Of a stretch of 64,000 bases of DNA, positions 32,441 through 61,416 are shown one piece after another. The position numbers were made by a program, and so were the translations under genes. The stretch comes from Solwaraspora sp. WMMA2065 (GTDB lineage Bacteria; Actinomycetota; Actinomycetes; Mycobacteriales; Micromonosporaceae), in assembly GCF_030345075.1 (NCBI RefSeq), contig NZ_CP128361.1, forward strand, positions 1,798,001 through 1,862,000, given 5' to 3'. How positions within the stretch are numbered: position 1 is the stretch's first letter; the number at the start of each line of letters is the position of its first letter. A model generated the notes under the pieces. It saw only the letters and a program-made list of their open reading frames with translations. It did no database searches and had not been told where the DNA came from.

Positions 32441-33468
32441 GCCGGACGGTCGTCGTCACCGGAGCCGCCGGCATGCTCGGCTCCCACCTCGCCGCCCGGC
32501 TGCGCGCCGACGGCCACCACGTCCGCGGCATCGATCTGCGCCCCGGCGTCGACGTCGCGGTGACCGGCGACGTAAGGGATCCGGCCGCGATGTCCCGGGC
32601 GGTGGCGGGCGCCGACGCCGTCGTGCACTGCGCGTCGGCGCTGCCCAGCTACCCGGTCGCCGAGATCCGGTCGATCATCGTCGACGGCGCGCGGACCGTG
32701 CTGACGGCTGCGGTCCGGGCCGGGGTGGCCCGGGTGGTGCACATCTCGTCCACCGCCGTCTACGGCCTGCCCCGGACCGTACCCACGACGGAGGAACACC
32801 CCCGGGAGCCGGTCGACCCGTACAGCGCCGCGAAGTCCGCCGCGGAGGAGTACGCCGAACGGCTGCGCGCCGACGGCGCCTGCCTGCCGATCGTGCGGCC
32901 CAAGACGTTCCTCGGCCCCGGCCGGATGGGGCTGTTCTCCATGCTGTTCGAGTGGGCCGAGGAAGGCCGCAACTTCCCGGTGATCGGCCGTGGCGACGTG
33001 CGCATCCAGATGCTCGCCCTGTCCGACCTCGTCGACGCGGTGACCACCGTGCTGGACGCGCCCGACCCGGTGGCCAACGACACGTACAACCTCGGCGCGG
33101 CCTCCTTCGGCACCCTGCGCGAGGACTTCCAGGCCGTGCTGGACGCCGCCGGGCACGGCGGACGGGTGGTGTCGGTGCCGAGCCGCCCGGCGCTCGCGCT
33201 GCTCGGCACGCTCGAACGGCTGCGGCTGTCCCCGGTGTACGGGCGCCTGCTGCACAAGCTCACCGCCGACTCGTTCGTCTGCATCGACAAGGCCCGGGAC
33301 CGGCTCGGATTCACCCCCCGTATGTCCAACCAGGACGCCATCCTCGACACCTACGCCTGGTGGCGTGACCAGCGCAAGGAGCCCCGTGATGCTGCCCAGA
33401 ACACCGGACGTACCAGCCGCGATCCCTGGAGACAGGGTGCTCTCGCCGCCGCCAAGGTCTTCTTCTGA
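32437..33468 (+). CDS. NAD-dependent epimerase/dehydratase (extended SDR)
   Basis: 343 residues. Rossmann motif VVTGAAGMLGSHLA, Ser-Tyr-Lys catalytic set (HISSTAVYG, then DPYSAAKSAAEEYAERL) and RPKTFLGPGRMGLF are those of extended SDR enzymes acting on nucleotide- or lipid-linked sugars. GTG 32437 overlaps the previous stop. The C-terminus overlaps the next gene by 80 bp in another frame, an unusually long overlap that ties the two together. The exact sugar is unknown. Confidence 0.85.
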   Translation: MSRTVVVTGAAGMLGSHLAARLRADGHHVRGIDLRPGVDVAVTGDVRDPAAMSRAVAGADAVVHCASALPSYPVAEIRSIIVDGARTVLTAAVRAGVARVVHISSTAVYGLPRTVPTTEEHPREPVDPYSAAKSAAEEYAERLRADGACLPIVRPKTFLGPGRMGLFSMLFEWAEEGRNFPVIGRGDVRIQMLALSDLVDAVTTVLDAPDPVANDTYNLGAASFGTLREDFQAVLDAAGHGGRVVSVPSRPALALLGTLERLRLSPVYGRLLHKLTADSFVCIDKARDRLGFTPRMSNQDAILDTYAWWRDQRKEPRDAAQNTGRTSRDPWRQGALAAAKVFF

Positions 33469-34339
33469 CCGAAGGTCTTCTTCCGACCGTCCGCGCCCCG
33501 GCCTCGCCCGCGACCTGATCGTCCTGCTGCGACCCGGACAGTGGCCGAAGAACCTGGTGGTGCTGCTCGCGCTGCTGGACCCCGCGTTGATGGACTGGCG
33601 GTCCGCCGGCCGGCTCGCCGTCGCGGTCGGCGCGTTCGTCCTCGCCGCCTCGACCGTCTACGTGCTCAACGACATCGCCGACCGCGAGCAGGACCGGGCC
33701 AGCCTGACCAAACGCCACCGCCCGATCGCGGCTGGACGGGTCACCCCCCGGACGGCGGCGCTGCTCGGGGTACTGCTGCTGGCCGCCCTCGCGGTGATCG
33801 TCGGCGACGCGCTGACCGCCTGGTGGCCGCTGCTGGTTTACCTGCCACTGAACCTCGCGTACAGCTTCGGCCTCAAGCACGTACCGCTGGTGGACCTGTT
33901 CGTCGTCGCCACCGGTTTCGTGCTGCGGCTGGTGCAGGGCTACACGACCGTCGGGGCGCGTCCGCCCGGCTGGCTCGTGCTGTGCGTGCTGTCGGTATGT
34001 CTGCTGCTCGTCCTCGGCAAACGCCGCCACGAACTGCTCGCCGACGAATCGGCCCACCGGCCGGCGCTGGCCGGCTACAACCAGCACCTGGTCGACGCGC
34101 TGCTGGTGCTGACCGCCGCCGCCACCCTCGTCACCTACCTGGCGTACGCCGCCACGGTCAGCGCCACCGGGCTGCTGACCGTCCCGTGCGCGCTGTTCGC
34201 CCTCTTCCGCTACCTGCAGGTCGTGTTCGTCGACTCGGGTGGCGGCAACCCCGTCTCGGTGCTGCTGCGCGACCGGGTGCTGCTGGTCAACGCCGCGCTG
34301 TGGCTGCTGCTGCTGGAAGGGAGTCAGTTGCATGGATGA
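33389..34339 (+). CDS. UbiA-family prenyltransferase, decaprenyl-phosphate phosphoribosyltransferase-like
   Basis: 316 residues with about nine membrane helices. The subgroup is shown by RPGQWPKNLVVLLALL, the Asp-rich motif LNDIADREQDRASLTKRHRP with IAAGRV after it, and LAYSFGLKHVPLVDLFVVA. In the DPPR synthases of mycobacteria this enzyme joins phosphoribose from PRPP to polyprenyl phosphate. The ATG at 33389 has AAGGAG upstream. It overlaps both neighbours. With the SDR, GT2 and phosphatase genes it suggests a polyprenyl-phosphate-linked pentose pathway. A role in prenylating the peptide product is a less likely alternative. Confidence 0.82.
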   Translation: MLPRTPDVPAAIPGDRVLSPPPRSSSDRRSSSDRPRPGLARDLIVLLRPGQWPKNLVVLLALLDPALMDWRSAGRLAVAVGAFVLAASTVYVLNDIADREQDRASLTKRHRPIAAGRVTPRTAALLGVLLLAALAVIVGDALTAWWPLLVYLPLNLAYSFGLKHVPLVDLFVVATGFVLRLVQGYTTVGARPPGWLVLCVLSVCLLLVLGKRRHELLADESAHRPALAGYNQHLVDALLVLTAAATLVTYLAYAATVSATGLLTVPCALFALFRYLQVVFVDSGGGNPVSVLLRDRVLLVNAALWLLLLEGSQLHG

Positions 34340-35333
34340 GCCGAAGGTGTCGGTCGTCGTACCGATGTACAACGACAGCCGGACCATCGACCTGTGCCTG
34401 GCGTCGGTGTCGACCCAGACCTACCCGGCGCACGAGGTCATCGTGGTCGACGACGCCAGCACCGACGACAGCGCCGTACGTGCCGCCCGGCACGCCTGCA
34501 CCCTCGTGCGGGCCGAGCGCAACGGTGGACCCGGCGCCACCCGCAACCTCGGTGTCCGGCACGCCAAGGGCGACATCGTCTTCTTCATCGACGCGGACAT
34601 GGTCATGTACCCGGACGCGATCGAGAACGCGGTCGCGCTGCTGTGCGGCCCACGAGGGTACGGCGCGGTCTTCGGCGTACCGGACAAGGTGCCGCTGTTC
34701 CCCGAGGGACCGGTCGGGCAGTACCGCATCCTCCAGTACCACTACTGGCGGGTCAGCGCGCAGGGCGAGGTCAGCGGCGGCTTCTACGCGCTCGGCGCGG
34801 TAACCCGCGCGGCGTTCGACGCCGCCGGCGGGTTCAACCCGGCGCTGCGGCAGACCGAGGAGATCGACCACGCGGAGCGGCTGTCCCAGCGGTACCCGAT
34901 GCTGCTCACCGCCCGCGTCAGCGGTCGGCTCTCCGACGAGAGCCACCTGATACCCCTGCTGCGCAAGGCGATTCGCCGCGCCCGGCTGCGGGTGCCGTTC
35001 TATCTGCATCGCGGCCGGGCGATGCAGGGGATGGAGACCGGTGGCCGGGCCGCCGCCTCGGTGCTGGCACTGCTCACCATGCTCAGCCTGCCGGCGGCGG
35101 TGGTCCACCCGCCGGTGCTGGTCGGCACCGCGCTGCTGCTGGCCGCGTTCGTCGCCGTCGACGCCGGCCAGTACGCGTTCGTCCGCCACGAGCGGGGCTG
35201 GCCCTTCCTGGTCTTCTTCACCGCGGTGCACCTGCTGGTCAACGCCACCGTCGCCGGTGGACTCGCCGTCGGCGTCCTCACCTGGCTCACCAGCCGACAG
35301 TTCCGTCACATGTACGAAAGGACCACGCCGTGA
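34332..35333 (+). CDS. Family 2 glycosyltransferase with C-terminal membrane helices
   Basis: 333 residues. The GT-A fold has VSVVVPMYNDSRTIDLCLAS, EVIVVDDASTDDS, GGPGATRNLGVRHAKGD and the DxD motif IVFFIDADM. Three to four C-terminal helices (from about 238) hold it in the membrane. It is a paralogue of the N-terminal half of the fusion at 29206; both keep the HEVIVVDD block and a similar C-terminal helix set. ATG 34332 overlaps the UbiA stop and its own stop overlaps the next start (GTGA). Confidence 0.85.
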   Translation: MDEPKVSVVVPMYNDSRTIDLCLASVSTQTYPAHEVIVVDDASTDDSAVRAARHACTLVRAERNGGPGATRNLGVRHAKGDIVFFIDADMVMYPDAIENAVALLCGPRGYGAVFGVPDKVPLFPEGPVGQYRILQYHYWRVSAQGEVSGGFYALGAVTRAAFDAAGGFNPALRQTEEIDHAERLSQRYPMLLTARVSGRLSDESHLIPLLRKAIRRARLRVPFYLHRGRAMQGMETGGRAAASVLALLTMLSLPAAVVHPPVLVGTALLLAAFVAVDAGQYAFVRHERGWPFLVFFTAVHLLVNATVAGGLAVGVLTWLTSRQFRHMYERTTP

Positions 35334-36529
35334 CGATCGATGACATCGCCGGGTCCCCCGCACCGGTGCCGCCGCTCACCGACCGGACCGCGCCTCGGTG
35401 GCAGCGCGTGGCCCGGGCCCTGCGGTGTTGGTACGGCTGGCTGCTGATCGCGGCGGCGGTGCTGTGGCTGGGCTACAACGTCGTGCGCCGGGCCGCCACC
35501 GGCAGATGGCACTGGTCGATCCTGCTCGACGCGGTGCCGCCGGTGTTCCTCATCGCCGTGCCACTGCTGCTGCTCGGACTCAGCGCCGCCGCGTGCGGTC
35601 CGCGTCGGCGGTGGGCCGCCGCCCTGGCCCTGGCCGGCCTGCTGCCCGGCATCGACCAGACCGGCGTCAACCTGCACGCGCTGCGGCCCGGCGACCGGCC
35701 CGTCCCGGCCAGCGCGGTGCACGTGGTGAGCTGGAACACCAACTACTGGGGCATGAGCAACGAGGATCCGCAGGCGCAGCTCAGATTCCTGAAACGGCTC
35801 GACGCCGACGTGTACCTGCTACAGGAGCATGTGATCTGGGTGCCGGGCACCGGCGAGGTCGGCTACCACCCGATCCGGGACGACGCCAGATTGCAGGCGG
35901 AGTTCCCCGGCTACCACATCGTGCACCGCAGCGAACTCGTCACCATCTCCCGGTTCCCGGTCGTGGCCACGCCGGTCTTCGGCCCGGCCACGCAGCTGTC
36001 TCCGGACGCACCGTTCAACCAGGTGTTCAGCCGGGACAAAGTGCTGCGCACCGACCTGCGCGTGGGGGACAGCACCGTTTCGGTCTACAACGTGCACGTC
36101 ACCGTGCCCACCGCCATCGACCTGAGCATCCTGCGGCCCCAGGTCGACCCGGACGCGTACTTCCGCCGCAAGTTCGACTGGCGGCAGGCTGAGGTGCAGG
36201 GTCTCGTCGACGATCTGCAGGCCAACCCGAACCCGTCGATCATCTCCGGCGACTTCAACGCCACCTCGTCCATGGGGACGCTCGACCCGTTGCGGGCGGT
36301 GGCCGAGGACGCGACCACGGCGAGCCGTCACCTGCTGCCGATGAGCTGGCGGTTCAACGCCCCGATGACCTTCCAGTGGGACAGTCCCCTCGCCGGCCTG
36401 CCGCTGCCGTTCTGGCGGATCGACTGGACGTTCACCGCAGGTCCGGTCAGGGTGCACCGGTACGAACTGGCGTCTGCGGAGTACCTGTCCGACCATCGGC
36501 CGCAGCATCTGTGGTTCTCGGTGGGCTGA
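35330..36529 (+). CDS. Membrane-anchored endonuclease/exonuclease/phosphatase-family hydrolase
   Basis: 399 residues. Three N-terminal helices (about 35-115) are followed by an EEP domain: VVSWNTNYWG, ADVYLLQEHV, SVYNVHVTVPTA, PSIISGDFNAT, and WRIDWTFTAG plus YLSDHRPQHLWF supply the metal- and phosphate-binding residues. Members act on phosphodiesters or phosphomonoesters. Here, dephosphorylating a polyprenyl-phosphoryl sugar phosphate (the step after DPPR synthase) is an attractive inference. GTG 35330 overlaps the GT2 stop. It closes the tightly coupled sugar/lipid block. Confidence 0.82.
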   Translation: MTIDDIAGSPAPVPPLTDRTAPRWQRVARALRCWYGWLLIAAAVLWLGYNVVRRAATGRWHWSILLDAVPPVFLIAVPLLLLGLSAAACGPRRRWAAALALAGLLPGIDQTGVNLHALRPGDRPVPASAVHVVSWNTNYWGMSNEDPQAQLRFLKRLDADVYLLQEHVIWVPGTGEVGYHPIRDDARLQAEFPGYHIVHRSELVTISRFPVVATPVFGPATQLSPDAPFNQVFSRDKVLRTDLRVGDSTVSVYNVHVTVPTAIDLSILRPQVDPDAYFRRKFDWRQAEVQGLVDDLQANPNPSIISGDFNATSSMGTLDPLRAVAEDATTASRHLLPMSWRFNAPMTFQWDSPLAGLPLPFWRIDWTFTAGPVRVHRYELASAEYLSDHRPQHLWFSVG

Positions 36530-36730: not shown

Positions 36731-38038
36731 GTGACCGTCACGGATCAGGACCCGGGCCGGACCGGCAGCGGGATGCGACACTTCCGCTCCCTGGTGGTCG
36801 GCAACGCGGTTTCGGCGTACGGCACCTATCTGGACATGATCGCGCTGAGCCTGTTCGCGTACTCGCTGACCGGCAGCGCCACCCACACCGGCCTGTTCAT
36901 GGCGTTACGCCTGGCCACCAGTGTCCTCACCGGATTCGGCGCCGGCAGCCTGGTGTCCCGGCTCGACCGCAAGCGGCTGATGGTGACCTCCGACGTCAGC
37001 CAGGCGTTCGCCCTGATCGTGCTGGTCATCGCGCCAGCCACGGCCCAGGCCGGCCTGTTGTACGCCGTCGCGGTCGTCACCGGCGCCGGGGCGACCGTCA
37101 CCAGTGTCGCGCTGCGCAGCAGCATCCCCGAGATCGTCGGGCAGGACCAACGGGTCCGGGCCAACGCGCTGCTGGCCACCGGCCGTTCGCTGGCGATGGT
37201 CGCCGGGTTCGCCTCGGCCGGCGTGCTCATCTCCACGGTCGGCTACACCGGTGCGTTTCTCATCGACGCCGGGGCGTTCCTCTTCTCAGCGGCGGTCCTG
37301 GCCCGGCTGCCGATCACCACCCGCAGCCGGCGGCCGGCAGGCGCGACGGACGCGGCCGAGGCGGCGGACTCCGTGCCGGGCGCCGCAGCAGACGCCGGAC
37401 CGGATGACGCGCTGCGGCGGCCCGGGATTCTCGCCGCGCAGTTGACGGCCCTGCGCTATTTGCGGCTCACCCCGGTCCTGCTCGCGCTGATCAGTCTGCG
37501 CGCCGCCGACGCCTTCGGCTCGGCCTCGCACAACGTCGGCCTGCCGGTGCTGTCCACCATGCTGGACCCGCAGCATCCGGCCGCGTTCATGTCCCAGTTC
37601 TGGGCCACCTGGGCGGTCGGCAACATCATCGCGCAACGCGGCGTCGCCCGTTGGGCCAGACGCACCGGCCGGACCATCAACGAGCGCGCGTTCGCCGCCG
37701 GCGCGGCGCTCATGTCGGTGGCGTTCATCCTCACCTTCACCGCGCCGCCGCTGCCGCTGGCCGTCCTGGTCGCCACCGTCGCCGGCATCGCCGACGGCTT
37801 CACCGAGATCGCCTATACCACCCGGCTGCAGGCCACCCCGGATGATCAACGCGGCTACGTCTTCGGGTTCTCCGCGACCGCAGAGAACCTCGGCTTCGGC
37901 GTCGGCATGGTGGCCTGCTCCTTTCTGCTGGAACAGTTCAGTCCGTTGACCGTGGTCACCCTGTTCCACGGGCTGGCGGTACTGCTGGCAGTGGCTTTCC
38001 TGGCCGCGCTGTGGGCGCGTCGGCGGACGACGACATGA
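36731..38038 (+). CDS. MFS exporter (EntS/macrolide-efflux type)
   Basis: 435 residues with about twelve helices. LVVGNAVSAYGTYLDMIALS, SLVSRLDRKRLMVTSDVSQ and QRVRANALLATGRSLAMVAG are typical of MFS_3-type self-resistance and siderophore exporters. Codon 59 is TTA. Its TGA overlaps the ATG of the megasynthase (ATGA), so exporter and assembly line are translated together, which strongly suggests that it exports the product. Confidence 0.85.
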   Translation: MTVTDQDPGRTGSGMRHFRSLVVGNAVSAYGTYLDMIALSLFAYSLTGSATHTGLFMALRLATSVLTGFGAGSLVSRLDRKRLMVTSDVSQAFALIVLVIAPATAQAGLLYAVAVVTGAGATVTSVALRSSIPEIVGQDQRVRANALLATGRSLAMVAGFASAGVLISTVGYTGAFLIDAGAFLFSAAVLARLPITTRSRRPAGATDAAEAADSVPGAAADAGPDDALRRPGILAAQLTALRYLRLTPVLLALISLRAADAFGSASHNVGLPVLSTMLDPQHPAAFMSQFWATWAVGNIIAQRGVARWARRTGRTINERAFAAGAALMSVAFILTFTAPPLPLAVLVATVAGIADGFTEIAYTTRLQATPDDQRGYVFGFSATAENLGFGVGMVACSFLLEQFSPLTVVTLFHGLAVLLAVAFLAALWARRRTTT

Positions 38039-41000
38039 GTGCCCCGACGCGCGGTGGCACCGACGACCGGCGGATCGCCATCATCGGCATGGCGTTGCGG
38101 CTACCCGGCGCGGACACCCCGCAGGCGTACTGGCACAACATCCGCGACGGCGTGACCAGCGTACGCAGGTTCAGCCCCACCGAGTTAGCCCGCGCCGGCG
38201 TGCCCGAGCAGCTGCGCGAGTCACCGGACTTCGTCGCCGTCAGCGGGGTGCTCGACGACATCGACTCGTTCGACGCCGAGTTCTTCGCGATGAGCCCGCA
38301 GGAGGCGCGCACCGTCGACCCGCAGCACCGGCTGTTCCTGCAGACCTGCTACCACGCGCTGGAGAACGGCGGGTACGCGGGCGCGCGATCTGACACCAGG
38401 GTGGGCATCTTCGCAGGTGTCGGATACCACCTTTATCCGCTCAACACCTACCTGCGCAACAACCTGGCCACCGCCCGCTGGGACGGTGACTTCGCCCCGG
38501 CGTTCCAGGTGGCCGTGGGAAACTACAACGACTTCGCCGCCACCCGGGTCGCGTACCGGCTCGGCCTGACCGGTCCGGCGGCCACCGTGCAGAGTGGTTG
38601 CTCGACCGCGCTGGTGGCGGTGCACCTGGCCGGCCAGGCGTTGCTCGCCGGCGACGCCGACCTGGCCCTGGCCGGCGCGTCGGCGTTGCACACCCCGCAG
38701 ATCCTGGGCTACCGCCACGTCAAGGGCACCATCCTGTCCCGGTCCGGCCGGTGCCGCGCGTTCGACGCGTCGTCCGACGGCACCGTCGGCGGCAACGGGG
38801 TCGCGGCGGTGCTGCTCAAGCGGTACGACCGGGCGGTCGCCGACGGGGACACCATCCACGCGGTGATCCTGGGTGGCGGTGTCAACAACGACGGTGCCGC
38901 GAAGACCAGCTACGCCGCGCCCAGCGCCGCCGGGCAGCGCGACGCCATCCTGCGGGCGCTCGACGTGGCCGGGGTCTCCCCGGAGACGATCGGCTACCTG
39001 GAGACCCACGGCACCGGCACCTACAAGGGCGACCCGATCGAGTTCGAGGCGATGACCTCGGCGTACCGCCGACGCACCGACCGGACCGGCTACTGCGCGA
39101 TCGGCTCGGCCAAGCCGGCCATCGGACACCTGGACGCCTGCGCCGGCATGGCCAGCCTGATCAAGACGGTGCTGGTGCTGCGGCACGCGACGATTCCGCC
39201 GCTGGTCGGGTTCGAGCGCCCCAATCCGGCGTTGGACCTGGCGGCCAGCCCGTTCGTCATTCCCACCGAGGCGCGCGCCTGGCCCGATCTGTCCGGGCCG
39301 CGCCGGGCGGGGGTGACCGCGCTCGCGGTCGGTGGCACCAACGCCCACCTGATCCTGGAGGCACCGCCACCGGCACGACCGGGGCTGCCGGCGACGGCAC
39401 CTCCCGGCCCCGCCCGTCACGGGGCGGAGGAGCCCGCGACGGCACCGCCCGCGACGGCGGACCCGGTGGCGGTGCCGCTGTCGGCGTACCACCCGGAGAG
39501 TCTGCGTACGCTCGCCCGCCGGCTGCGCGACCACCTGCGGGCCGACCCCGGGCTCGACCCGGCCGACCTAGCCACCACCACCGCACTCGGCCGGCCGCAC
39601 CTGCCGCACCGACTCGTCGTGTCCGGCGCGACGACGACGGCGCTCGCGGACGCCCTGGACGACTACCTCGCCGCGCCGGGGCGGCAACGCCCGGGGCGGG
39701 TGGCCACCGGCACGGTGCCGGGCGCCGGCATCGCCTCCGGCGGGCCCGGCGGGGTGGCGCCGGTGGTGGTGTACGGCGGGCAGGGCACCTCGTACCCGGG
39801 CATGGCCGGGCCGCTGTACCGGTGGTACCCGCAGGTGCGGGCGGTGCTCGACGCCTGCGAGGCGTACCAGCGCCGCTGCGGCGGACCGTCGGTGCTGACG
39901 CCGCTGCTCGACGGCCTCTCCGGTGACGACCGGATCTGGCCCGCCGACGTGGCGCAGCCGGCGCTGTTCGCGTTCCAGGTCGCACTGACCGGGCTGTGGA
40001 GTTCGCTCGGGGTGGCGCCGCGCCTCGTCGCCGGCCACAGCATCGGCGAGTACGCGGCCCTGGCTGCGGCCGGCGCGCTGACGATCGAGGACGGCCTGCG
40101 GCTGACCGGGTTGCGCGGACGGCTGATGCGGGAGCACACCGCACCCGGCGGCATGGTGGCCGTCTTCGCCACCCGGGCCGCGGTCGACGAGGTGCTCGCC
40201 ACCGACCGGCGGCTCGACCTCGCCGCGACCAACGCGGCCGAGCAACATGTCGTCGCCGGGCCGGTCGAGGCGCTCGACGCCGGCTGTGGCGTGCTCGACC
40301 GTCTCGGGGTGCGTTGGCACCGGCTCGCCGTCGACCGCGCCTTCCACTCGGCACTGCTCGACCCGATCCTCCCCCGGCTCGGCGAGGCGTTCGGGTCGGT
40401 CCCGTGGGCGCCGTTGGACACGCCGCTGGTCAGCAGCGTGGACGGCACCGTGCTACCGGCGGGGCACCGGCCGGACCCGGCGTACCTGGTGCGGCAGACC
40501 CGGATGCCGGTCCGGTTCGACCTGGTCGCGGCCGCGATCGCCGAGACGTCGGCCGCCGCCGGGTCGGCCGGTGTGCCGGTGCTGGAGCTCGGTCCACAAC
40601 CGAGTCTGGTCGGGTTGCTGCGCGCGGCACTGCCCGGGTCGTCGGCGCTCGCCGCTCAGCGCCGGGGCGCGGAACTCGATCAGCACCTCGACACCTGTGC
40701 CCGGCTGCACGTCCACGGAGTCGATCTGGACTGGAACGCCCTGCTCGACGCCGGGCAGGCGCACGCGCGCCGGGTGCCGCTGCCCGCGTACCCGTTCCAG
40801 CGACGAGTCCACTGGACCGGACCGCCGCTGGCACGAACCGAACCTGGAGGGCTCATGGTCGACGTCGAACCCGTCCGCGACGCTGGTGCCACCGTCGCCG
40901 CCGCACCGGCCGCGCCGGACCTCGCGCCGGTAATCGAGCGGGTACGCGAAATCAGCGCCCGACATCTCGGCTGCGCCCCGGACGACATCGTCATCGACCG

Positions 41001-44000
41001 CCCGTTCGTCGAGATGGGTGCCGACTCACTCGCCATGATCAACGCACTACGGGAGTTCGAGGGCGAGTTCGGCGTCCGGCTCGCCATGCGCGAACTGTTC
41101 GAGGAAGCGGACACCCCGAGCAAACTGTCGCGCCTGATCCTGTCCCGTCGGACCCCGGCACCGCCAGCACCGCCAGCGCCGCTGGCACCAGCCACACCGG
41201 CACCGGCCGAACCGCCGGTGCCAACTGCGGTACCGGCAGCACCGGGCGTTGACGTGCACGGGCCCAGGGTGGTCGTGGCACCCGACAGCGGTCAGGCCGG
41301 CGCGGTCGCTACCGGCCACGGCCGAGCCCATCTGGACGACCTGCGGCGACGGTTCGTGGCGAAGACCCGGCGGTCGAAGGAGATCGCCCAGCGCCACCGT
41401 GGCGTGCTCGCCGACAGCCGGGCGGTCGTCGGCTTCCGCAGCGCCACCAAGGAGATGCTGTACCCGATCGCCGGCCAGCGTGCCAAGGGCGCATGGCTGG
41501 AGGATGTGGACGGCAACCGGTACGTCGACATCACCATGGGCTTCGGGGTACTGCTGTTCGGCCACGAACCGGACTTCGTCGCCGACGCGGTCCGGGAACA
41601 CCTGTCCCGGGGCATCCGGCTCGGACCGCGCAGCGTCGACACGGGAGAGGCCGCAGTGCTGTTGAGCGAGCTGACCGGGATGCCCCGGGTGGCGTTCGCC
41701 AACTCGGGCACCGAGGCGAACTCGGCCGCGATCCGGCTCGCCCGGGCCGCCACCGGACGCGACAAGATCGTCATGTTCCACGGGTCGTACCACGGACACG
41801 CCGACAATGTGCTCGGCCGCTCGGTCGGGACGGGTGCCGACCGGACCACCGTCCCGGTCAGCACCGGCATCCCGGCCAGCGCCGTCGCGGACCTGGTCGT
41901 ACTCGACTACGGCGTACCGGAGAGCCTGCAGGTGATCGAGTCACTCGGGGAGCGGTTGGCCGCCGTCGTGGTCGAGCCGGTGCAGAGCCGCCACCCGTCC
42001 CTGCAGCCGGCGGAGTTCCTGCGCCGGCTCCGGGACATCACCCGGCGGTACGGCATCGTGCTGATGTTCGACGAGATGCTGACCGGGTTCCGGCCCCATC
42101 CGCGCGGCGCACAGGGCCTGTTCAACGTGACCCCGGACCTCGTCACGTACGGCAAACTGCTCGGCGGCGGCTTCCCGATCGGGGCGATCGCCGGACGCGC
42201 CGACATCATGGACGGCGTCGACGGCGGATTCTGGCGCTACGGCGACGACAGCCGCCCGCAGCGGGAGACGACCTTCTTCGGCGGCACCTACATCCAGCAT
42301 CCGGTCTCCATGGCCGCCGCGCGCGCGGTGCTGACCCGGTTGACCGAGTACAGCCCACGACTGCAGCTGGAGCTCAACGCCCGGACCGACCGGCTCGTCG
42401 GCACGCTGAACGACTTTATTGCCGAGGAGGAGTACCCGGTCCGGCTCGGCCACGTCGGCTCGCAGTTCCGCTTCGAGCACCGCGCCGACCTCGAGTTGCT
42501 CTACCACCACCTGCTGCTCAAGGGGGTGTACGTCTGGGAGTGGCGCAACTTCTTCCTCTCCACCGCACACACCGACGACGACGTCGACCTGGTGATCGAC
42601 GCGGTGCGCGCCTCGCTACGCGACATGCGTGCCGGCGGGCTGCTCCCCCGTCCGGCCGGGCCCGCCGTGCCCACGGCGAAACCGGAAGACACCGCCCCGA
42701 CCGGACCGGCGGTGCGCACCCTGCCTACGGCAGGAACCGGACCGGCGGTACGCACCGAACCGGCAGCGAGTACCGCAGCAGCAGGCAGCCTCGAACCGGC
42801 GGGCGGACCGGGACGACCGGCACCGGACTTCAGCGTGTACTTCTTCGGGGACTATCCGCCCGGCTCGGGGGCTGCCGACCCGTACGAGCTGATCGTCGAC
42901 ACGGCCCGCTTCGCCGACCAGCACGGATTCCACGCGCTGTGGATCCCCGAGCGCCACTTCCACTCCTTCGGCGGGGTGTTCCCCAACCCGGTGGTGCTGG
43001 CCGCCGCGCTGGCCCGCGAGACGAGCCGGATCCGGTTGCACGCCGGATCGGTGGTCCTGCCGCTGCACGACCCGATCCGGGTCGCCGAGGACTGGTCCAT
43101 GGTCGACCGGCTGTCCGGCGGCCGAGTCGGCATCGGTTGTGCGCCCGGCTGGCACGCGGGCGACTTCGTCCTCGCCCCGGAGCACTTCGGTGCCCACCGC
43201 GACGTGATGTACCGCCACCTCGACCAGGTACGTCGGCTGTGGCGTGGCGAGGCCGTCGAACGGCGCAGCGGCACCGGCGAACCGGTTGAGATCCGCACCC
43301 TGCCCCGCCCGGTGCAGGCGATGCCGCCGATGTTCGTCGCCGTGGTCGGTAACCCGGAGTCGTACCAGCGGGCCGCCGAGCACGACCTCGGCATCGTCAC
43401 GAACCTGATGAGCCAGTCGGTGGAACAGTTGGCCGACAACATCCGGCGTTACCGAAAGACCCGGGCCGCGCACGGGCTCGACCCGGACGGCGGCCGGGTG
43501 GTCGTGCTCGTGCACACCTACCTCGGTGCGGACTCGGCACGGGCGCGGGCCGAGGCGTTCGCGCCGCTGAAGGCGTACCTGCACTCCTCGCTGTCGCTGT
43601 TCGGGCAGATGACCAACAGTCTCGGATTCCAGGTGGACCTCGACACCGCCGACGCCGACGATCTGGACTACGTGTTCCAGCGCGCCTACCAACGGTACTG
43701 CGAGGCACGGGCGCTGATCGGGTCGCCGGACGACGGCATCCGGCTGATCGACGCGCTCACCGCCGCCGGCGTCGACGAGGTGGCCACGCTGGTCGACTTC
43801 GGCGCATCCCCCGACCAGGTGCGGGCCGGGTTGCCGCAGCTGGACCAGCTACGGGCCAGCTACCAGGCGGCGACCGAGACGTCACCGACCGACGCACCGC
43901 CCACCGACACGTCCCCGGTCAGGCTGACGGCGGCGACCGGCAACCCGGTGGCCGTCCGCGACGCCGGCCCGGACCGGTCCGGGCCGGCGTCGCGTGGGCA

Positions 44001-47000
44001 GGCGCGGATGTGGTTTCTCGAACGGCTGCACCCGGGCCAGGGCACCTACAACGAGGCGGTCAGCGTACGGCTCGACGGTCCGCTGGACGTGCCGGCGCTG
44101 CGGGCCGCACTGGAGCAGCTGGTGGCCCGGCATGGGGCGCTGCGTACCGTGTTCCGGGAACGCGACGGCGAACCGGTCCAGGTCGTCCTCGGCCGGGGCA
44201 CAGTGGACCTCACCGTCGAGGAGCACGCCGGGCGGGACGAGAACGACACCGTACGGCAGGTGCTGGCCGAGGAGAGCCGGCGCGAGTTCGACCTCGCGCA
44301 GGGTCCGCTGCTGGCGACCCGGCTGCTGCGGTGGTCGGCCGAGCGGCACGTGCTGGTGCTGTCCGTGCACCACATCGTGGTCGACGCCGAGTCCGTGCGG
44401 GTGCTGGCCGGGGATCTCTCCGCGTTGTACCGGGCCGCACTCGGCAGCCGCTCCGCCGACCTGCCGGAGCTTCCGGTGGACTGCCTGGACCTGGCCCGGC
44501 GGGAGGCGGACGCCGGCAGCGATTCGCCCGCCGCGCCGGCCGGTCTGGCCTACTGGCGGGAGCGACTCGCCGGTGAACTGCCGGTGCTGGACCTGCCGAC
44601 CGACCGACCACGCCCGACGGTGCGCGGTGGCACCGGCGCGTCGGTCCTGCGCGGGCTCGACCCGGAGCTGTCCGGGCTGCTGAGCCGGCTCAGTAGCGCG
44701 CACCGGGTCACGCTGTTCATGACGGTACTCGCCGGGTACGCGGCCACGCTGCGCCGGTTCACCCGCAGCGATCAGCTGGTCGTCGGCACACCGGTGTCGG
44801 TCCGGCCCACCGGCGCCGAGGCGGTGGTGGGGTTCTTCCTCAACACGGTCGCCCTGCGGCTGGACCTGTCCGGCGACCCGACCTTCGCCAACCTGCTCAA
44901 GCAGGTCCGCGACACCGCCCTGGACGCGTACGACCATGCCGACATGCCGTTCGACGCCGTCGTCGGCGCGGTGAGCCCGGACCGGGACACCAGCCGGACC
45001 CCGGTCTTCCAGACCATCGTGGAGTTCGACAACGGCGGCGACCAGCTCCCGCTCGACCTGCCCGGGGTGACCGCCCGCACCCTGGCGCACCGGGCCGAAC
45101 GGGCGGTGACCGACCTGGCCCTGTACGTGACCAACCACGCCGACGGGATCGACTGCCGGTTGGAGTACGGCACCGACCTGTTCGTGGCGGACAGCGCCGA
45201 GCGGTTGCTGTCGTATCTGGTCGCGACGCTGGCCGCCGCCGTCGACCAGCCCGATACGCCGATCTCGAAGCTGGTCGGCATCCTCGACACCGACCGGGAC
45301 GCGCTGGAGGGTTGGGGCGTTGGACGACAGCGCGTGCTGCCGCCCGGTGGTGTGCACGACGCGGTGCGGCAGTGGGCGCGACGCACGCCGCAGGCGGTCG
45401 CGGTGATCGGTGGCGGCACGGTGCTGACCTACCGGCAACTCGACGAGCAGGCCACCGCTCTGGCGCAGCGGCTGGTCCGGCACGGGATCGCCGCAGGCGA
45501 CATCGTGGCGCTGTGGCTGCCCCGGTCACCGGAGTTCGTCGTCGCCGCCCTGGCGGTGCTGCGCGCCGGAGCCGCGTACCTGCCGTTGGATCCGTCCCTC
45601 GGCGGCCGGCAGGTGAGTTTCATGGTCTCGGACAGCGCGGCCCGGGTGGTGCTGGCCACCGGGGGTGACACCGCACCGGACCTGCCCGACGGGGTCCGTC
45701 TGCTGCACGTCGACGGGTACGGCGACACCGATCCCGTCGGCGGGTCCGACGACCCCGGCCGCGTGGCGGACGATCCGGATGCGGCGTGCTACGTCATGTA
45801 CACCTCCGGTTCCACCGGCAGGCCGAAGGGTGTGGTCATCACCCACCGCAGCGTGCTGAACCTGTGCCGGTGGTACCGCGACGAGCTGGAGCTGACCGCC
45901 GACGACCGGAGTGCCGTGGTGTGCGGGCAGAGCTTCGACGCCTCGGTGCTGGAGATCTGGCCGCCGCTGCAGGTCGGTGCGAGCCTGACGATCGCCGACG
46001 ACGACGTACGGCTGGACTCGATGGCGCTGGCGCGCTGGATGCGTACCGCCGGGGTGAGCGTCGCGATGCTGCCCACACCGATCGGGGAAGGGTTGCTCTC
46101 GCTGCCTGTCGCGGCCCAGCCCCGGCTGCGTCACCTCACCGTCGGCGGCCAGCAACTGCGGGTACGCCCACAGTCCGGGGTGCCGTACGTCGTACGCAAC
46201 GTGTACGGACCGACCGAGACGACGGTCATCGCCACCTTTGACGTGGTGGCGCCGGCGGTGGCCGGAGCCGATGGTCCGATTCCGATCGGCCGGCCGCTGG
46301 ACAACGTCCGGGTCGAGATCCGCGACGAGTGGGGCAACCTGGCTCCGGTCGGCGCCGTCGGGGAGCTGTTCATCGGCGGCGCCGGAGTGGGTCGCGGCTA
46401 CCTGAACCGGCCCGAGCTGACCGCGCAGCGGTTCGTCGACGACCCGCCCGGCGGCCCCGGTTCGCGCCGCTACCGCACCGGGGACCTGGTGCGGTGGACC
46501 GCCGACGGGGTGCTGGTGTTCCTCGGCCGTACCGACGACCAGGTCAAGATCCGGGGGAACCGGGTCGAGCCAGGTGAGGCGTCGGCCGTCCTGCGCAGGC
46601 TGGATCTGGTCACCGACGGCATCGTGGTGGCCCGCCGGGACCGGCGCGACGAGGCGTACCTCGCCGGGTACGCCGTACCCGCGCCGGGCGTGGCACCCGA
46701 CGGGCTGGCCGACCGGCTCGTCGCCGCGATGGCCCGCGAACTGCCCGACGTGCTGATCCCCCGGGTGTGGGCGATGCTGCCGGCGCTGCCGCAGACCGGC
46801 AACAACAAGGTCGACCGTGCCGGGCTGCCGGAGCCGACCATCCGTACCGGTGAGCCCGCGCCACCGCTGGCCCCGCCGACGACACCACAGGCAGTGGCCC
46901 TACCGGCGGCCCGGCGGGAGACCCGGAACAACGACCCGACCGGTGACTCGCTGACCCGGACGGTGCGGGCGTTGTGGGCCGCCGAACTCGACCAGGATCC

Positions 47001-47217
47001 GGAGCGCATCGACCACGACGCGTCCTTCTTCGCCCTCGGCGGGCATTCGATCAACGCGATGCGCCTGCTGAACCGGGTACGCGAGGCCACCGGAGCGGAC
47101 TATCCGGCGTTGGAGTTCTTCCGCGCCCCGACCATCGCGGCGATGGTGGGCCGGCTGCGCGGACACGCCGCGTCCGCCGACGGCGGGCCCGTCAGCCGGG
47201 TGCGGGGCACGCTGTGA
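38035..47217 (+). CDS. Hybrid PKS-aminotransferase-monooxygenase-NRPS megasynthase
   Basis: 3060 residues. Order: KS (about 10-445; Cys189 in SGCSTALV, ETHGTGT, IGHLDACAG), AT (about 575-900; Ser669 in GHSIGEY, AFHS as in malonyl-specific ATs), ACP (Ser998 in GADSL), class III aminotransferase (about 1110-1540; Lys1374 in YGKLLGGG), luciferase-like monooxygenase (about 1600-1945), condensation (HHIVVDA at 2112-2118), adenylation (TSGSTG from 2590; NVYGPTETT) and PCP (Ser3005 in GGHSI). No KR, DH, ER, loading or thioesterase domain is present. It should extend an acyl starter with malonate, turn the beta-ketone into an amine, oxidise it, and couple it to an amino acid. ATG 38035 overlaps the MFS stop; GTG 38011 is an alternative. 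Codon 51 is TTA. Confidence 0.9.
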   Translation: MSAPTRGGTDDRRIAIIGMALRLPGADTPQAYWHNIRDGVTSVRRFSPTELARAGVPEQLRESPDFVAVSGVLDDIDSFDAEFFAMSPQEARTVDPQHRLFLQTCYHALENGGYAGARSDTRVGIFAGVGYHLYPLNTYLRNNLATARWDGDFAPAFQVAVGNYNDFAATRVAYRLGLTGPAATVQSGCSTALVAVHLAGQALLAGDADLALAGASALHTPQILGYRHVKGTILSRSGRCRAFDASSDGTVGGNGVAAVLLKRYDRAVADGDTIHAVILGGGVNNDGAAKTSYAAPSAAGQRDAILRALDVAGVSPETIGYLETHGTGTYKGDPIEFEAMTSAYRRRTDRTGYCAIGSAKPAIGHLDACAGMASLIKTVLVLRHATIPPLVGFERPNPALDLAASPFVIPTEARAWPDLSGPRRAGVTALAVGGTNAHLILEAPPPARPGLPATAPPGPARHGAEEPATAPPATADPVAVPLSAYHPESLRTLARRLRDHLRADPGLDPADLATTTALGRPHLPHRLVVSGATTTALADALDDYLAAPGRQRPGRVATGTVPGAGIASGGPGGVAPVVVYGGQGTSYPGMAGPLYRWYPQVRAVLDACEAYQRRCGGPSVLTPLLDGLSGDDRIWPADVAQPALFAFQVALTGLWSSLGVAPRLVAGHSIGEYAALAAAGALTIEDGLRLTGLRGRLMREHTAPGGMVAVFATRAAVDEVLATDRRLDLAATNAAEQHVVAGPVEALDAGCGVLDRLGVRWHRLAVDRAFHSALLDPILPRLGEAFGSVPWAPLDTPLVSSVDGTVLPAGHRPDPAYLVRQTRMPVRFDLVAAAIAETSAAAGSAGVPVLELGPQPSLVGLLRAALPGSSALAAQRRGAELDQHLDTCARLHVHGVDLDWNALLDAGQAHARRVPLPAYPFQRRVHWTGPPLARTEPGGLMVDVEPVRDAGATVAAAPAAPDLAPVIERVREISARHLGCAPDDIVIDRPFVEMGADSLAMINALREFEGEFGVRLAMRELFEEADTPSKLSRLILSRRTPAPPAPPAPLAPATPAPAEPPVPTAVPAAPGVDVHGPRVVVAPDSGQAGAVATGHGRAHLDDLRRRFVAKTRRSKEIAQRHRGVLADSRAVVGFRSATKEMLYPIAGQRAKGAWLEDVDGNRYVDITMGFGVLLFGHEPDFVADAVREHLSRGIRLGPRSVDTGEAAVLLSELTGMPRVAFANSGTEANSAAIRLARAATGRDKIVMFHGSYHGHADNVLGRSVGTGADRTTVPVSTGIPASAVADLVVLDYGVPESLQVIESLGERLAAVVVEPVQSRHPSLQPAEFLRRLRDITRRYGIVLMFDEMLTGFRPHPRGAQGLFNVTPDLVTYGKLLGGGFPIGAIAGRADIMDGVDGGFWRYGDDSRPQRETTFFGGTYIQHPVSMAAARAVLTRLTEYSPRLQLELNARTDRLVGTLNDFIAEEEYPVRLGHVGSQFRFEHRADLELLYHHLLLKGVYVWEWRNFFLSTAHTDDDVDLVIDAVRASLRDMRAGGLLPRPAGPAVPTAKPEDTAPTGPAVRTLPTAGTGPAVRTEPAASTAAAGSLEPAGGPGRPAPDFSVYFFGDYPPGSGAADPYELIVDTARFADQHGFHALWIPERHFHSFGGVFPNPVVLAAALARETSRIRLHAGSVVLPLHDPIRVAEDWSMVDRLSGGRVGIGCAPGWHAGDFVLAPEHFGAHRDVMYRHLDQVRRLWRGEAVERRSGTGEPVEIRTLPRPVQAMPPMFVAVVGNPESYQRAAEHDLGIVTNLMSQSVEQLADNIRRYRKTRAAHGLDPDGGRVVVLVHTYLGADSARARAEAFAPLKAYLHSSLSLFGQMTNSLGFQVDLDTADADDLDYVFQRAYQRYCEARALIGSPDDGIRLIDALTAAGVDEVATLVDFGASPDQVRAGLPQLDQLRASYQAATETSPTDAPPTDTSPVRLTAATGNPVAVRDAGPDRSGPASRGQARMWFLERLHPGQGTYNEAVSVRLDGPLDVPALRAALEQLVARHGALRTVFRERDGEPVQVVLGRGTVDLTVEEHAGRDENDTVRQVLAEESRREFDLAQGPLLATRLLRWSAERHVLVLSVHHIVVDAESVRVLAGDLSALYRAALGSRSADLPELPVDCLDLARREADAGSDSPAAPAGLAYWRERLAGELPVLDLPTDRPRPTVRGGTGASVLRGLDPELSGLLSRLSSAHRVTLFMTVLAGYAATLRRFTRSDQLVVGTPVSVRPTGAEAVVGFFLNTVALRLDLSGDPTFANLLKQVRDTALDAYDHADMPFDAVVGAVSPDRDTSRTPVFQTIVEFDNGGDQLPLDLPGVTARTLAHRAERAVTDLALYVTNHADGIDCRLEYGTDLFVADSAERLLSYLVATLAAAVDQPDTPISKLVGILDTDRDALEGWGVGRQRVLPPGGVHDAVRQWARRTPQAVAVIGGGTVLTYRQLDEQATALAQRLVRHGIAAGDIVALWLPRSPEFVVAALAVLRAGAAYLPLDPSLGGRQVSFMVSDSAARVVLATGGDTAPDLPDGVRLLHVDGYGDTDPVGGSDDPGRVADDPDAACYVMYTSGSTGRPKGVVITHRSVLNLCRWYRDELELTADDRSAVVCGQSFDASVLEIWPPLQVGASLTIADDDVRLDSMALARWMRTAGVSVAMLPTPIGEGLLSLPVAAQPRLRHLTVGGQQLRVRPQSGVPYVVRNVYGPTETTVIATFDVVAPAVAGADGPIPIGRPLDNVRVEIRDEWGNLAPVGAVGELFIGGAGVGRGYLNRPELTAQRFVDDPPGGPGSRRYRTGDLVRWTADGVLVFLGRTDDQVKIRGNRVEPGEASAVLRRLDLVTDGIVVARRDRRDEAYLAGYAVPAPGVAPDGLADRLVAAMARELPDVLIPRVWAMLPALPQTGNNKVDRAGLPEPTIRTGEPAPPLAPPTTPQAVALPAARRETRNNDPTGDSLTRTVRALWAAELDQDPERIDHDASFFALGGHSINAMRLLNRVREATGADYPALEFFRAPTIAAMVGRLRGHAASADGGPVSRVRGTL

Positions 47218-48701
47218 CCTTCGCCGAGCTGCTGGAGTACGTCGCCGTGCACGATGTGCGGCTCACCGGCACCGGCGACACCCTGCACTACGACGCCCCG
47301 GCCGCCGCGATGGGTCCGGAGCTGGTCACGGCGCTGCGATCGCACAAGGGCGAACTGCTGCGCTGGCTGGCCGCACCGGCGCACGAGCGGGAGGTGACCC
47401 GGGCGCCGCTGTCGGCCCAGCAGGAGAGGGTGGTGGAGGTCGCCGGCCGCAGCACGCACCCCGCCAGCTGGAACGTCGGGTTGCGGCTGGAACTGGTCGG
47501 CGAACTCGATGTCGCCGCGCTAGACGCCGCGCTCGATGGTCTGGTCGCCCGGCACCATGCGCTGCGTGCCCGGCTGATCCGCGACGGTGGCACCTGGACC
47601 CAGCGGATCCTCGCCCACCGGTCGGTCCCGCTGCCCGTCGTCGAGTTGACCGCGCTGGCGCCGGACGCGGCGCGGCGGCGGGCCGAGGCCTTCTGCCGGG
47701 AGGTGGTGGCGCCGGTGTTCGCGCTGGCGGACGAGGCACCGGTGCGGTACGCGCTGATCCGGCTGGCGCCCGAGGAGTCCTGGCTGGTGCTGGTGCTGCA
47801 TCACGTCGCCTGCGACGGCCGGGCGGTCACCGTACTGCTGCGCGAGCTGGCGGACGGGTACCGCACCGCCCGCGATTCAGGTACGCCGGACTTCGGCCCG
47901 CCCACCGCCCAGTGCACCGACTACGCACGCTGGCAGCAGGGCCAGTGGGATGAGCCGACCCGCCGCCGACGGCTCGCCTACTGGGCGGAGCACCTGGGCG
48001 ACGGGCCGCTGGCGCTGGATCTGCCGTTCGACCGCCCCGCACCGCAGCAGCCGAGCGGGCGGGCCGCCACCTGTCGGTTCGAGATCCCGGGGCAGATTCG
48101 GCTCGCCGTCGAGGTGCTCGCCCGGGAGCTGGGTGCCACGGTGACCGCGGTCGCCGCTGCGGCGTTGGCGCTGCTGCTCGCCCGGCTCAGCGGGCAGCCC
48201 GACGTCACCCTGTCGATGCCGTACGCCAACCGGTCACCCACGGCGTACGAGGACACCGTCACCGTGCTGGCGACGGCGTTGCCGGTACGGATCCGCACGG
48301 CCGCCGCCGCGACGTTCGCCCACCTGGTCGGCCAGGCCGCCGACAGCCTGTTCGCCGGCATCGACAATCTGCTGCCCACGGCCTGGATCTACCAGCAGCT
48401 ACCCGCGCCGGACAAGGGCGCGGCGTCGTCCGGAGTGACGGTGAGCTTCGCCTTTCAGAGTACGTTCGACACCCGGATCGAGCTGCCGGAGTTGGCTGTA
48501 CGGGTGCACGAGGTGCCGACCGGGGTCGGGCGGGCGGCGCTGCTCATCGTCCTGATGCCCGGCCCGGACGGGATCGACGGCTATCTGGAGTACCCGGTGG
48601 ACCGGCTCGACGACGACACCGTTCGCCGCTGGATGACGAGGTATGTCGACCTGCTCGCCACGGCGGCTGTCGGCCCGAACCGTCTGCTTGCCGACCTCTG
48701 A
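47214..48701 (+). CDS. Stand-alone NRPS condensation domain with N-terminal TubC docking domain
   Basis: 495 residues. The first ~50 (FAELLEYVAVHDVRLTGTGD, LRSHKGELLRWL) are a TubC-type docking domain, which receives the C-terminal tail of an upstream NRPS protein. The rest is a condensation domain with an intact catalytic motif HHVACDG, plus PLSAQQERV and WIYQQLPAPDK. There is no adenylation, carrier or thioesterase domain after it. GTG 47214 overlaps the megasynthase stop (GTGA). It probably releases the PCP-bound chain by transfer to a soluble amine or alcohol, the role known for other terminal C domains. The acceptor is not evident. Confidence 0.85.
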   Translation: MTFAELLEYVAVHDVRLTGTGDTLHYDAPAAAMGPELVTALRSHKGELLRWLAAPAHEREVTRAPLSAQQERVVEVAGRSTHPASWNVGLRLELVGELDVAALDAALDGLVARHHALRARLIRDGGTWTQRILAHRSVPLPVVELTALAPDAARRRAEAFCREVVAPVFALADEAPVRYALIRLAPEESWLVLVLHHVACDGRAVTVLLRELADGYRTARDSGTPDFGPPTAQCTDYARWQQGQWDEPTRRRRLAYWAEHLGDGPLALDLPFDRPAPQQPSGRAATCRFEIPGQIRLAVEVLARELGATVTAVAAAALALLLARLSGQPDVTLSMPYANRSPTAYEDTVTVLATALPVRIRTAAAATFAHLVGQAADSLFAGIDNLLPTAWIYQQLPAPDKGAASSGVTVSFAFQSTFDTRIELPELAVRVHEVPTGVGRAALLIVLMPGPDGIDGYLEYPVDRLDDDTVRRWMTRYVDLLATAAVGPNRLLADL

Positions 48702-52025: not shown

Positions 52026-52361
52026 TCAGGTCCGTCGTTCGTAGACGACGACTGGGACGCCGCCCGGGTCGACGACCACCGACCGCCGCTCGTGCGGGCC
52101 CGACACGGGCTCCCCGACGGACGCGCCGGCCGCGGTCAACTCGGCGACGCAGCTGTCGAGGTCGTCGACCTCGACGCTGAGCAGGGTGCGGCCGGCGACG
52201 GGCTGCTGTGACCCGGCGGCCAGGCCGATGGTCACCGTCCCGTCGGTGAGCGCGACGTACCGGTCGCCGTCGCGGAACCGCACCGTCAGCCCGAGCCGGG
52301 TGTAGAAGTCGACCTGCGCGGCCAGGTCCCCGGCCGCAACGATGACGTGGCCGATCCTCAC
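52026..52361 (-). CDS. VOC (glyoxalase/dioxygenase-fold) protein
   Basis: 111 residues in one VOC module: IGHVIVAAGDLAAQVDFYTR at the start, LLSVEVDDLDSCVAEL in the middle and VVVDPGGVPVVVYERR at the end. Members are metal-dependent lyases, isomerases, dioxygenases or binding proteins. GTG 52361 overlaps the TGA of the LLM gene (GTGA). Being the last gene of the operon, it may isomerise or bind an intermediate. Confidence 0.78.
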   Translation of the reverse strand: MRIGHVIVAAGDLAAQVDFYTRLGLTVRFRDGDRYVALTDGTVTIGLAAGSQQPVAGRTLLSVEVDDLDSCVAELTAAGASVGEPVSGPHERRSVVVDPGGVPVVVYERRT

Positions 52362-53341: not shown

Positions 53342-53349
53342 GACCGCGC

Positions 53350-54321: not shown

Positions 54322-54336
54322 GGCGAGTTCCTTAGG

Positions 54337-59070: not shown

Positions 59071-59085
59071 GACCACTCCTCGTTT

Positions 59086-59106
59086 ATTCCGACCAGCCGG
59101 TATGTT
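59086..59106. promoter_or_regulatory. Operator-like element, copy 1
   Basis: Reads ATTCCGACCA, then G, then CCGGTATGTT on the plus strand. It is an imperfect inverted repeat with CCG/CGG half-sites, as in many TetR-family operators, and differs from copy 2 (62985-63005) at one base. It lies just upstream of the minus-strand unit starting at 59070. Confidence 0.65.
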
Positions 59107-59150
59107 ACCGCTGCGCTTCTGTCACTGCAAGGTCTGCGCAGGTCAGCGCA

Positions 59151-60212: not shown

Positions 60213-60225
60213 GCGGCCACTCCGC

Positions 60226-61377: not shown

Positions 61378-61416
61378 GGCAGGCTCCCCTGTCGTCGGAC
61401 ACCTCACACGTCGTGG

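Follow-up and report, generated by a model that had tools for sequence, protein, structure and literature searches.

A conserved three-gene cluster of Solwaraspora predicted to make a short peptide with an N-terminal 3-amino-2-hydroxy acid and to release it through a terminal condensation domain

In a 64,000-nucleotide stretch of the genome of Solwaraspora sp. WMMA2065 (the window; contig NZ_CP128361.1, positions 1,798,001 to 1,862,000), positions 36,731 to 48,701 hold a conserved, self-contained and compact cluster of three genes, which encode an exporter, a hybrid polyketide synthase-non-ribosomal peptide synthetase (PKS-NRPS) and a separate condensation (C) protein. We consider it probable that this cluster makes a short peptide with an N-terminal 3-amino-2-hydroxy acid, which the terminal C domain would release onto a free acceptor. 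Each of the predicted biosynthetic steps has a precedent. The three genes are the following, with coordinates given in the window:

36731..38038, forward strand: major facilitator superfamily (MFS) exporter, first gene of the conserved unit (Pfam MFS_1, 6.6e-30; its stop overlaps the ATG at 38035)
38035..47217, forward strand: hybrid PKS-NRPS of 3060 amino acids, KS-AT-ACP-AMT-LLM-C-A-PCP (Pfam, translation)
47214..48701, forward strand: terminal condensation protein of 495 amino acids (Pfam, translation)

Gene organisation and domain architecture

The open frame of the synthase spans 38011/38035-47217 on the forward strand and the ATG at 38035 was taken as its start. The stop of the MFS gene overlaps this ATG and the stop of the synthase gene overlaps the GTG at 47214 of the terminal C gene, which suggests translational coupling of the three genes. 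These joins also back both starts, and the ends given for the synthase and its C partner in the preliminary description of the window (38035 and 48701) were correct. Pfam searches and motifs yielded the following domains:

38068..39213, forward strand: ketosynthase (KS), about 12 residues past the N-terminus and without a loading module (Pfam; the same in 55 relatives outside the loader group described below)
39769..40560, forward strand: acyltransferase (AT), probably malonyl-specific (Pfam; motifs GHSIGE and RAFHS)
40903..41145, forward strand: acyl carrier protein (ACP) (Pfam; boundaries set by us)
41461..42537, forward strand: class III aminotransferase (AMT), MycA-like, predicted to set the C3 amine (Pfam; 6KFM, E 5.6e-129)
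42832..43779, forward strand: luciferase-like flavin monooxygenase (LLM), PuwE-like, predicted C2 hydroxylase (Pfam; TIGR04020; 6KET, E 2e-113)
43984..45306, forward strand: internal C domain, HHIVVDA (Pfam, motif, tree)
45367..46809, forward strand: adenylation (A) domain, specificity residues read as DALMTGVVI (Pfam)
46960..47157, forward strand: peptidyl carrier protein (PCP) (Pfam)
47197..47214, forward strand: C-terminal tail RVRGTL, likely docking peptide (conserved in split synthases)
47226..47369, forward strand: TubC-type N-terminal docking domain of the terminal C protein (Pfam TubC_N, 1.4e-7)
47400..48692, forward strand: terminal C domain, HHVACDG, predicted to release the chain (Pfam Condensation, 2.9e-56; motif, tree)

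In residues of the synthase, the Pfam matches were ketoacyl-synt at 20-274 with the C-terminal part of the KS reaching 401, Acyl_transf_1 at 587-850, Aminotran_3 at 1151-1509 (E 9.8e-50), Bac_luciferase at 1608-1923 (E 9.2e-51), Condensation at 1992-2432 (E 1.8e-90) and AMP-binding at 2453-2798 with its C-part to 2933. Two PP-binding stretches were found, the best at 2984-3049 and the other being the ACP between AT and AMT. The expected motifs could be read in the translation: SGCS, HGTGT and IGH in the KS, GHSIGE in the AT, DSL in the ACP, GKLLGGG in the AMT, GGHSI in the PCP and HHVACDG in the terminal C domain. The probable malonyl specificity of the AT is read from GHSIGE and RAFHS by the usual motif rule. 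The order of domains and the TubC-docked C domain with an intact HHxxxDG motif thus stand as the preliminary description had them. Its claim that loading, reductive and thioesterase (TE) domains are lacking is borne out as well, as Pfam detected no KR, DH, ER, TE or R domain in either synthase protein. The internal C domain departs from HHxxxDG: it reads HHIVVDA, in line with the rule of the family, where HHxxxD(A/T/S) is found in 67 of 70 internal C domains.

With a single A-PCP pair, one amino acid would be added, in agreement with the coupling step first proposed. The code DALMTGVVI is shared by 5 of 6 window-type proteins, the sixth (genome G016) reading DALMAGVVV, and the commonest code of the family is DALILGVVL (35 of 79 A domains). 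Codes of the form DAL.TG.V are found for aromatic residues, which is too weak a guide here, and the amino acid is left unassigned.

Tailoring domains and related synthases

The closest solved relative of the AMT is the aminotransferase domain of MycA of mycosubtilin synthase (6KFM, 433.9 bits; 6KFR and 6KFU also matched), followed by glutamate-1-semialdehyde aminomutases at 207.8 bits, and the motif of the pyridoxal phosphate lysine, GK..GGG, is kept. MycA presumably differs from the synthase of the window in having no LLM and in carrying a fatty acyl loading part. For the LLM, the closest solved structure is PuwE (6KET, 382.7 bits over 337 aligned residues), the next one scoring 91.7 bits. 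It also reaches 450.1 bits on TIGR04020 (cut-off 244.45), the MupA/Atu3671 family of flavin mononucleotide-dependent luciferase-like monooxygenases. These matches uphold the conversion of the beta-ketone to a beta-amine and the oxidation step anticipated in the preliminary description. According to a preprint (PMC13252402), an aminotransferase-monooxygenase pair is common to cyanobacterial pathways for 3-amino-2-hydroxy residues. The predicted formation of a 3-amino-2-hydroxyacyl chain by AMT and LLM is well supported by these homologies.

The preliminary description did not recall this exact compact set of domains, but it has a precedent in PuwE of the cyanobacterial puwainaphycin pathway, which combines a PKS module, an aminotransferase, an oxygenase and a single NRPS module and has been linked to a 3-amino-2-hydroxyacyl unit (puwainaphycin and microginin pathway texts, PMC4219810 and PMC12250027). 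PuwE has the same order KS-AT-ACP-AmT-Ox-C-A-PCP with a clearly homologous LLM, but is one step of a longer lipopeptide line, in which priming goes through a fatty acyl-AMP ligase and a TE ends the synthesis. In contrast, the synthase of the window has no loader, adds one amino acid and is predicted to rely on the terminal C domain for release. It is a relative of PuwE and not a puwainaphycin pathway, because its protein contains no loader and no TE was found nearby. The microginin synthetase (micA-F) likewise uses PKS and AMT domains on the way to N-terminal 3-amino-2-hydroxydecanoic acid, its products being aminopeptidase and angiotensin-converting enzyme (ACE) inhibitors. It differs in being primed by a fatty acid AMP-ligase and in having two to six NRPS modules, and the word monooxygenase is absent from the main text of the microginin paper, unlike the LLM-bearing synthase studied here.

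Distribution of the family

We scanned 84,980 species genomes with two aminotransferase peptides from a seven-sequence alignment and kept the best 80 of 99 relatives. The 80 loci (numbered with L below) are not a random set and several are cut by contig ends: AMT and LLM lie in different frames in L099, L102 and L103, no AT matched at the threshold used in L080 and L083, and L109 and L110 are cut before the LLM. Most loci are from Streptomyces. The others include Streptacidiphilus, Kitasatospora, Streptantibioticus, Streptosporangium, Marinactinospora, Actinosynnema, Kutzneria, Rhodococcus, Actinoplanes, Symbioplanes and one metagenome-assembled genome of the Pseudonocardiales. Within the genus, genomes G001, G003, G005 and G006 encode relatives with 91-95% identity over AMT-LLM, whereas G002 and G004 do not at that level. 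One of 12 other genera searched in the family Micromonosporaceae has a close relative (G016, 83% over AMT-LLM). The MFS, synthase and C genes occur together in all five genomes. The synthase of the window shares 63-97% identity over AMT and LLM with 79 relatives, drawn from 73 of the 80 loci, from the five orthologous genomes and from a Streptomyces chartreusis plasmid.

The gene families that recur in the 80 loci are the synthase (76), the MFS protein (59), KS-AT-ACP (54) and the separate C protein (17), any other neighbour family being present in at most 9 loci. In 58 of the 61 loci with a complete KS gene start, the MFS gene immediately precedes the gene that bears the KS; the exceptions are L057, where it precedes the loader gene, L062 and L087.

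Among the matches listed by a search of titles and abstract beginnings in the open-licence literature, we found no characterised cluster with this pair of synthase and C protein, which is weak evidence; such a cluster was named in the preliminary description as a possible refutation. Bestatin and amastatin biosynthesis were not found among those matches either. The combination of loaderless priming and terminal-C release in actinobacteria appears, within the same matches, to have no assigned product.

The terminal condensation domain

At least two C domains follow the LLM in 70 of the 78 loci with an LLM match. Of the remaining eight, L051, L053, L073, L074, L098 and L102 are contigs shorter than 6 kb and L106 is truncated at its end, which leaves L087 as the one real exception. 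The last C domain is fused to the PCP-bearing protein in 53 of the 70 loci and split off in 17, with the proviso that among the latter the domains of L103 are scattered over frames and the last C domain of L080 belongs to a further gene.

In a tree built with FastTree, 70 terminal and 73 internal C domains, those of the window and of the plasmids included, form two separate clades; four domains of at most 330 residues were left out (L037 internal; L080, L082 and L083 terminal). The phylogeny of both C domains, which the preliminary description had proposed as a check, thus separates all 70 terminal from all 73 internal domains. Both clades held when 21 extra C domains were added. A further Kutzneria C domain joined the terminal clade (support 0.978) and four joined the internal clade (support 1.0), namely the internal ones of L087 and L106 plus two of genomes G010 and G013. 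The G010 and G013 proteins (L017 and L018) match the family over the LLM only. Because their C domains nevertheless fall in the internal clade, the LLM and its C domain may evolve as a pair.

From the terminal clade we conclude that, as judged by sequence, fused and docked terminal C domains are the same domain. The idea of an orphan C domain, put forward at first, is ruled out by its recurrence after the LLM, its own clade and its fusion in 53 of 70 loci: it is a fixed and often fused part of a widespread actinobacterial synthase. The HHxxxDG motif is present in 66 of the 70 terminal C domains, the others reading HHMITDA (one) and QHTVSDA (three).

In split synthases of the window type, the upstream protein ends with RVRG(T/A)L in 6 of 6 cases. 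A Gx(L/V) end was found in all 16 other split synthases with a complete 3' end, 11 of them with RVxG (L106, being cut, was not counted). Since the split upstream proteins share this conserved end after a variable linker, the Gx(L/V) or RVRGxL tail is likely a docking peptide for the terminal C protein.

Priming

Outside the loader group, the KS gene could be read in 55 loci, and in these the KS starts no more than 20 residues into the predicted protein; in L036, L080 and L101 the predicted start falls within the KS. The loader group is the second of the two groups into which the AMT and LLM tree (midpoint root, drawn with no support values) splits the loci. There, 8 of 8 loci with a complete start carry an A-KR-ACP loading part, fused in 7 and encoded by a separate gene in L057. 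This part is similar to starter modules that contain a reductase and serve for alpha-keto acids (PMC13252402). As the window type has no loader in cis, priming of its synthase would take place in trans or through malonate decarboxylation.

Release of the chain

The profile PF00975 has 10 matches in the 6.7 Mb genome, the nearest lying about 64 kb to the left and about 135 kb to the right. With a model built from three TE sequences, no TE was matched in the window, its flanks, the two Streptomyces plasmid loci and the examined stretches of the five orthologous genomes. Pfam searches of 31 other open reading frames, a subset of those of the window, gave no further NRPS gene. The TE or additional NRPS module that, according to the preliminary description, might complete the line from just outside was thus not found within these limits.

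Overall, a TE was matched in 8 of the 80 loci. Three loci of Streptacidiphilus encode a TE with the motif GHSMG as an N-terminal fusion to the terminal C domain (detected by Pfam in L038 and L039 and by our own model in L043):

L038, 15779-18061: TE-terminal C fusion protein
L039, 15836-18037: TE-terminal C fusion protein
L043, 15040-18060: TE-terminal C fusion protein

The motif of their terminal C domain is altered to QHTVSDA, the TE-bearing protein of L039 reading QHTVSDG. L039 also encodes a second C protein of the same type, with QHTVSDA and without a TE. Because Streptacidiphilus combines an altered C motif with a fused TE, these sequences suggest that the terminal C domain normally performs release; they fit a change of release mechanism in one Streptacidiphilus lineage.

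Two known systems give an idea of how a terminal C domain might do so. In rhabdopeptide (RXP) synthesis, the stand-alone C protein Kj12C has a docking domain of TubC topology at its N-terminus, with which it binds a peptide at the C-terminus of the upstream protein; it takes the chain over from the T domain of that protein and passes it to a free amine (PMC6195595). The pair in the window matches this layout by description, with a stand-alone C domain, TubC-type docking, an upstream tail and an intact HHxxxDG. The acceptor of Kj12C is mostly phenylethylamine. In glidonin, a terminal condensation domain adds putrescine to the C-terminus of the chain; unlike the C domain of the window, it sits in a fused C-A*-T-TE module ending a 13-module line (PMC10587159). 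By analogy with Kj12C and glidonin and from the comparison of relatives, release by the terminal C domain onto a free acceptor is plausible.

Alternatively, the terminal C domain could release the chain intramolecularly, the beta-amine or the alpha-hydroxyl attacking the PCP thioester to give a small cyclic product with no external acceptor. Terminal C domains can cyclise in other systems, the predicted chain bears a free amine and a free hydroxyl, and no acceptor-making gene recurs beside the unit in the 80 loci. We nevertheless regard cyclisation as unlikely, given that a seven-membered ring formed from a two-residue chain would be unusual and that Kj12C, a stand-alone C domain with TubC-like docking, uses a free amine.

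We hold it quite unlikely that the chain is passed to NRPS modules elsewhere in the genome, the terminal C domain being an ordinary one that awaits a partner in trans. McyE-like proteins do end in a C domain that serves the next module. Kutzneria locus L080 has an A-PCP-C gene downstream, Streptantibioticus locus L106 has a C-A-PCP-TE gene upstream, and the genome of the window contains further C domains as well as an NRPS gene (L010, 218-6595) that lies about 46 kb upstream of the synthase gene and encodes two C, two A and two PCP domains. However, among the 80 loci, covered to at most about 5 kb beyond the unit, only L080, L087 and L106 had A or PCP matches outside it. At E <= 1e-150, residues 1-1094 of the nearest NRPS were unmatched in G001, G003 and G006. 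The best match in G005 (86%) is 1.2 Mb away from the synthase, none of five others there (44-54%) comes closer than about 0.3 Mb, and the single match in G016 (39%) is at 4.2 Mb. The window-type unit is kept in all five genomes regardless, and the NRPS 46 kb upstream was rejected as a partner since it is not linked to the synthase in relatives.

A hydrolase-like or vestigial terminal C domain, with the product leaving as a free acid by slow hydrolysis or through a distant TE, would agree with the free carboxylate of bestatin-type peptides and with the pairing of an altered C motif and a TE in Streptacidiphilus, but is very unlikely: 66 of 70 terminal C domains retain HHxxxDG, the arrangement, fused or docked, persists from genus to genus, and 64 kb separate the nearest TE match in the genome of the window from the synthase.

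Several points also weigh against release onto a free acceptor and the pathway built around it. The activity of the terminal C domain in the window is a prediction from its sequence. The three Streptacidiphilus loci represent one genus and one event, and QH keeps the second histidine. A TE also stands beside L036, L057 and L080, where the HH of the terminal C domain is intact, and NRPS genes close to L087 and L106 contain one too; TE presence and decay of the C domain are thus not exclusive. L087 has no second C domain, its frame ending after the first. According to PMC6195595, Kj12 must bind the tail at another site than TubC itself does, which makes the docking mode in the window a guess. 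The missing loader is compatible with malonyl decarboxylation by the KS, not just with acylation in trans. Finally, in the PuwE text the hydroxylation by PuwE is itself deduced from the product.

Neighbouring genes and side loci

Upstream of the MFS gene, six packed genes on the forward strand (29206-36529) encode a GT2 glycosyltransferase with an LPG-synthase-like membrane part, a class III aminotransferase, an SDR protein, a UbiA protein, a second GT2 protein and an EEP phosphatase, and look like a prenyl-linked (amino)sugar pathway. As a source of an amine acceptor, this block was considered and rejected: it is found in the genome of the window and in G005 and is absent from the 12-13 kb upstream flanks of G001, G003, G006 and G016, so it is not a needed part, these four genomes keeping MFS, synthase and C genes without it.

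On the other side, a block on the reverse strand (52026-61407, running on into L008) encodes four stand-alone luciferase-like monooxygenases, CoA ligases, an ECH protein, two acyl-CoA dehydrogenases, glyoxalases, a thiolase and an oligopeptide-type ABC transporter. It is probably catabolic and was rejected as a part of the system, having no counterpart in the examined stretch of G016.

Other observations concern relatives. On the Streptomyces aurantiacus plasmid NZ_CP114282, L022 (7628-28730) holds a phosphonate cluster (phosphoenolpyruvate (PEP) mutase, phosphonopyruvate decarboxylase, a transketolase pair) and an MFS gene. A 3589-amino-acid relative on this plasmid reads KS-AT-ACP-LLM-C-A-PCP-C, with no detectable AMT, a fused terminal C domain and a possible extra N-terminal A-PCP (25% identity, 52 bits). 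A phosphonate hybrid is possible. Downstream of the Kutzneria buriramensis synthase, which has no AT match, L080 16874-22413 contains PALP and OCD genes, a thioesterase gene and the A-PCP-C gene. We take the PALP and OCD genes to resemble the SbnA/SbnB diaminopropionate pair. L061 has a neighbour of 1198 amino acids (11157-14750). Near the orthologous loci, luciferase-like monooxygenase matches with internal stops were seen at G003:C1:715926-716828 and G001:C9:2690606-2691454, possibly decayed copies or joined frames.

Proposed pathway and its meaning

In the pathway that we propose, the KS would take an acyl starter in trans, probably from acyl-CoA or an acyl carrier protein, and add one malonyl unit to give a beta-ketoacyl-ACP. 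By close homology to MycA, the AMT would turn the ketone into an amine and, by close homology to PuwE, the LLM would hydroxylate C2, yielding the 3-amino-2-hydroxyacyl chain. The internal C domain would couple this chain to the amino acid that A-PCP has loaded. Docked through its TubC-type domain on the RVRGxL tail of the synthase, the terminal C protein would then pass the PCP-bound chain to a free acceptor, in all likelihood an amine, with no need for a thioesterase. The product, H2N-CHR-CH(OH)-CO-aa-X, would be exported by the MFS protein. Its predicted N-terminus has the general form of the bestatin, amastatin and microginin aminopeptidase inhibitors, and it may, judging from the domain order, be a bestatin- or microginin-like aminopeptidase inhibitor.

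More tentatively, and with some doubt, this picture could extend to a large actinobacterial family with clusters of two to four genes, in which priming of a loaderless KS takes place in trans, AMT and LLM set a free N-terminal 3-amino-2-hydroxy acid and a dedicated clade of docked terminal C domains caps the chain with a free amine, giving capped aminopeptidase inhibitors of dipeptide size, one lineage having apparently swapped this release for a TE.

The finding gives a frequent, compact and apparently unassigned type of actinobacterial cluster a specific predicted chemistry, for which three genes suffice as a test system. Should it hold true, about 80 natural synthases (fused or split, with or without a loader, and with one TE lineage) would be at hand for the priming of a loaderless KS and for TE-free release, and new inhibitors of metallo-aminopeptidases would be predicted from strains that are already sequenced.

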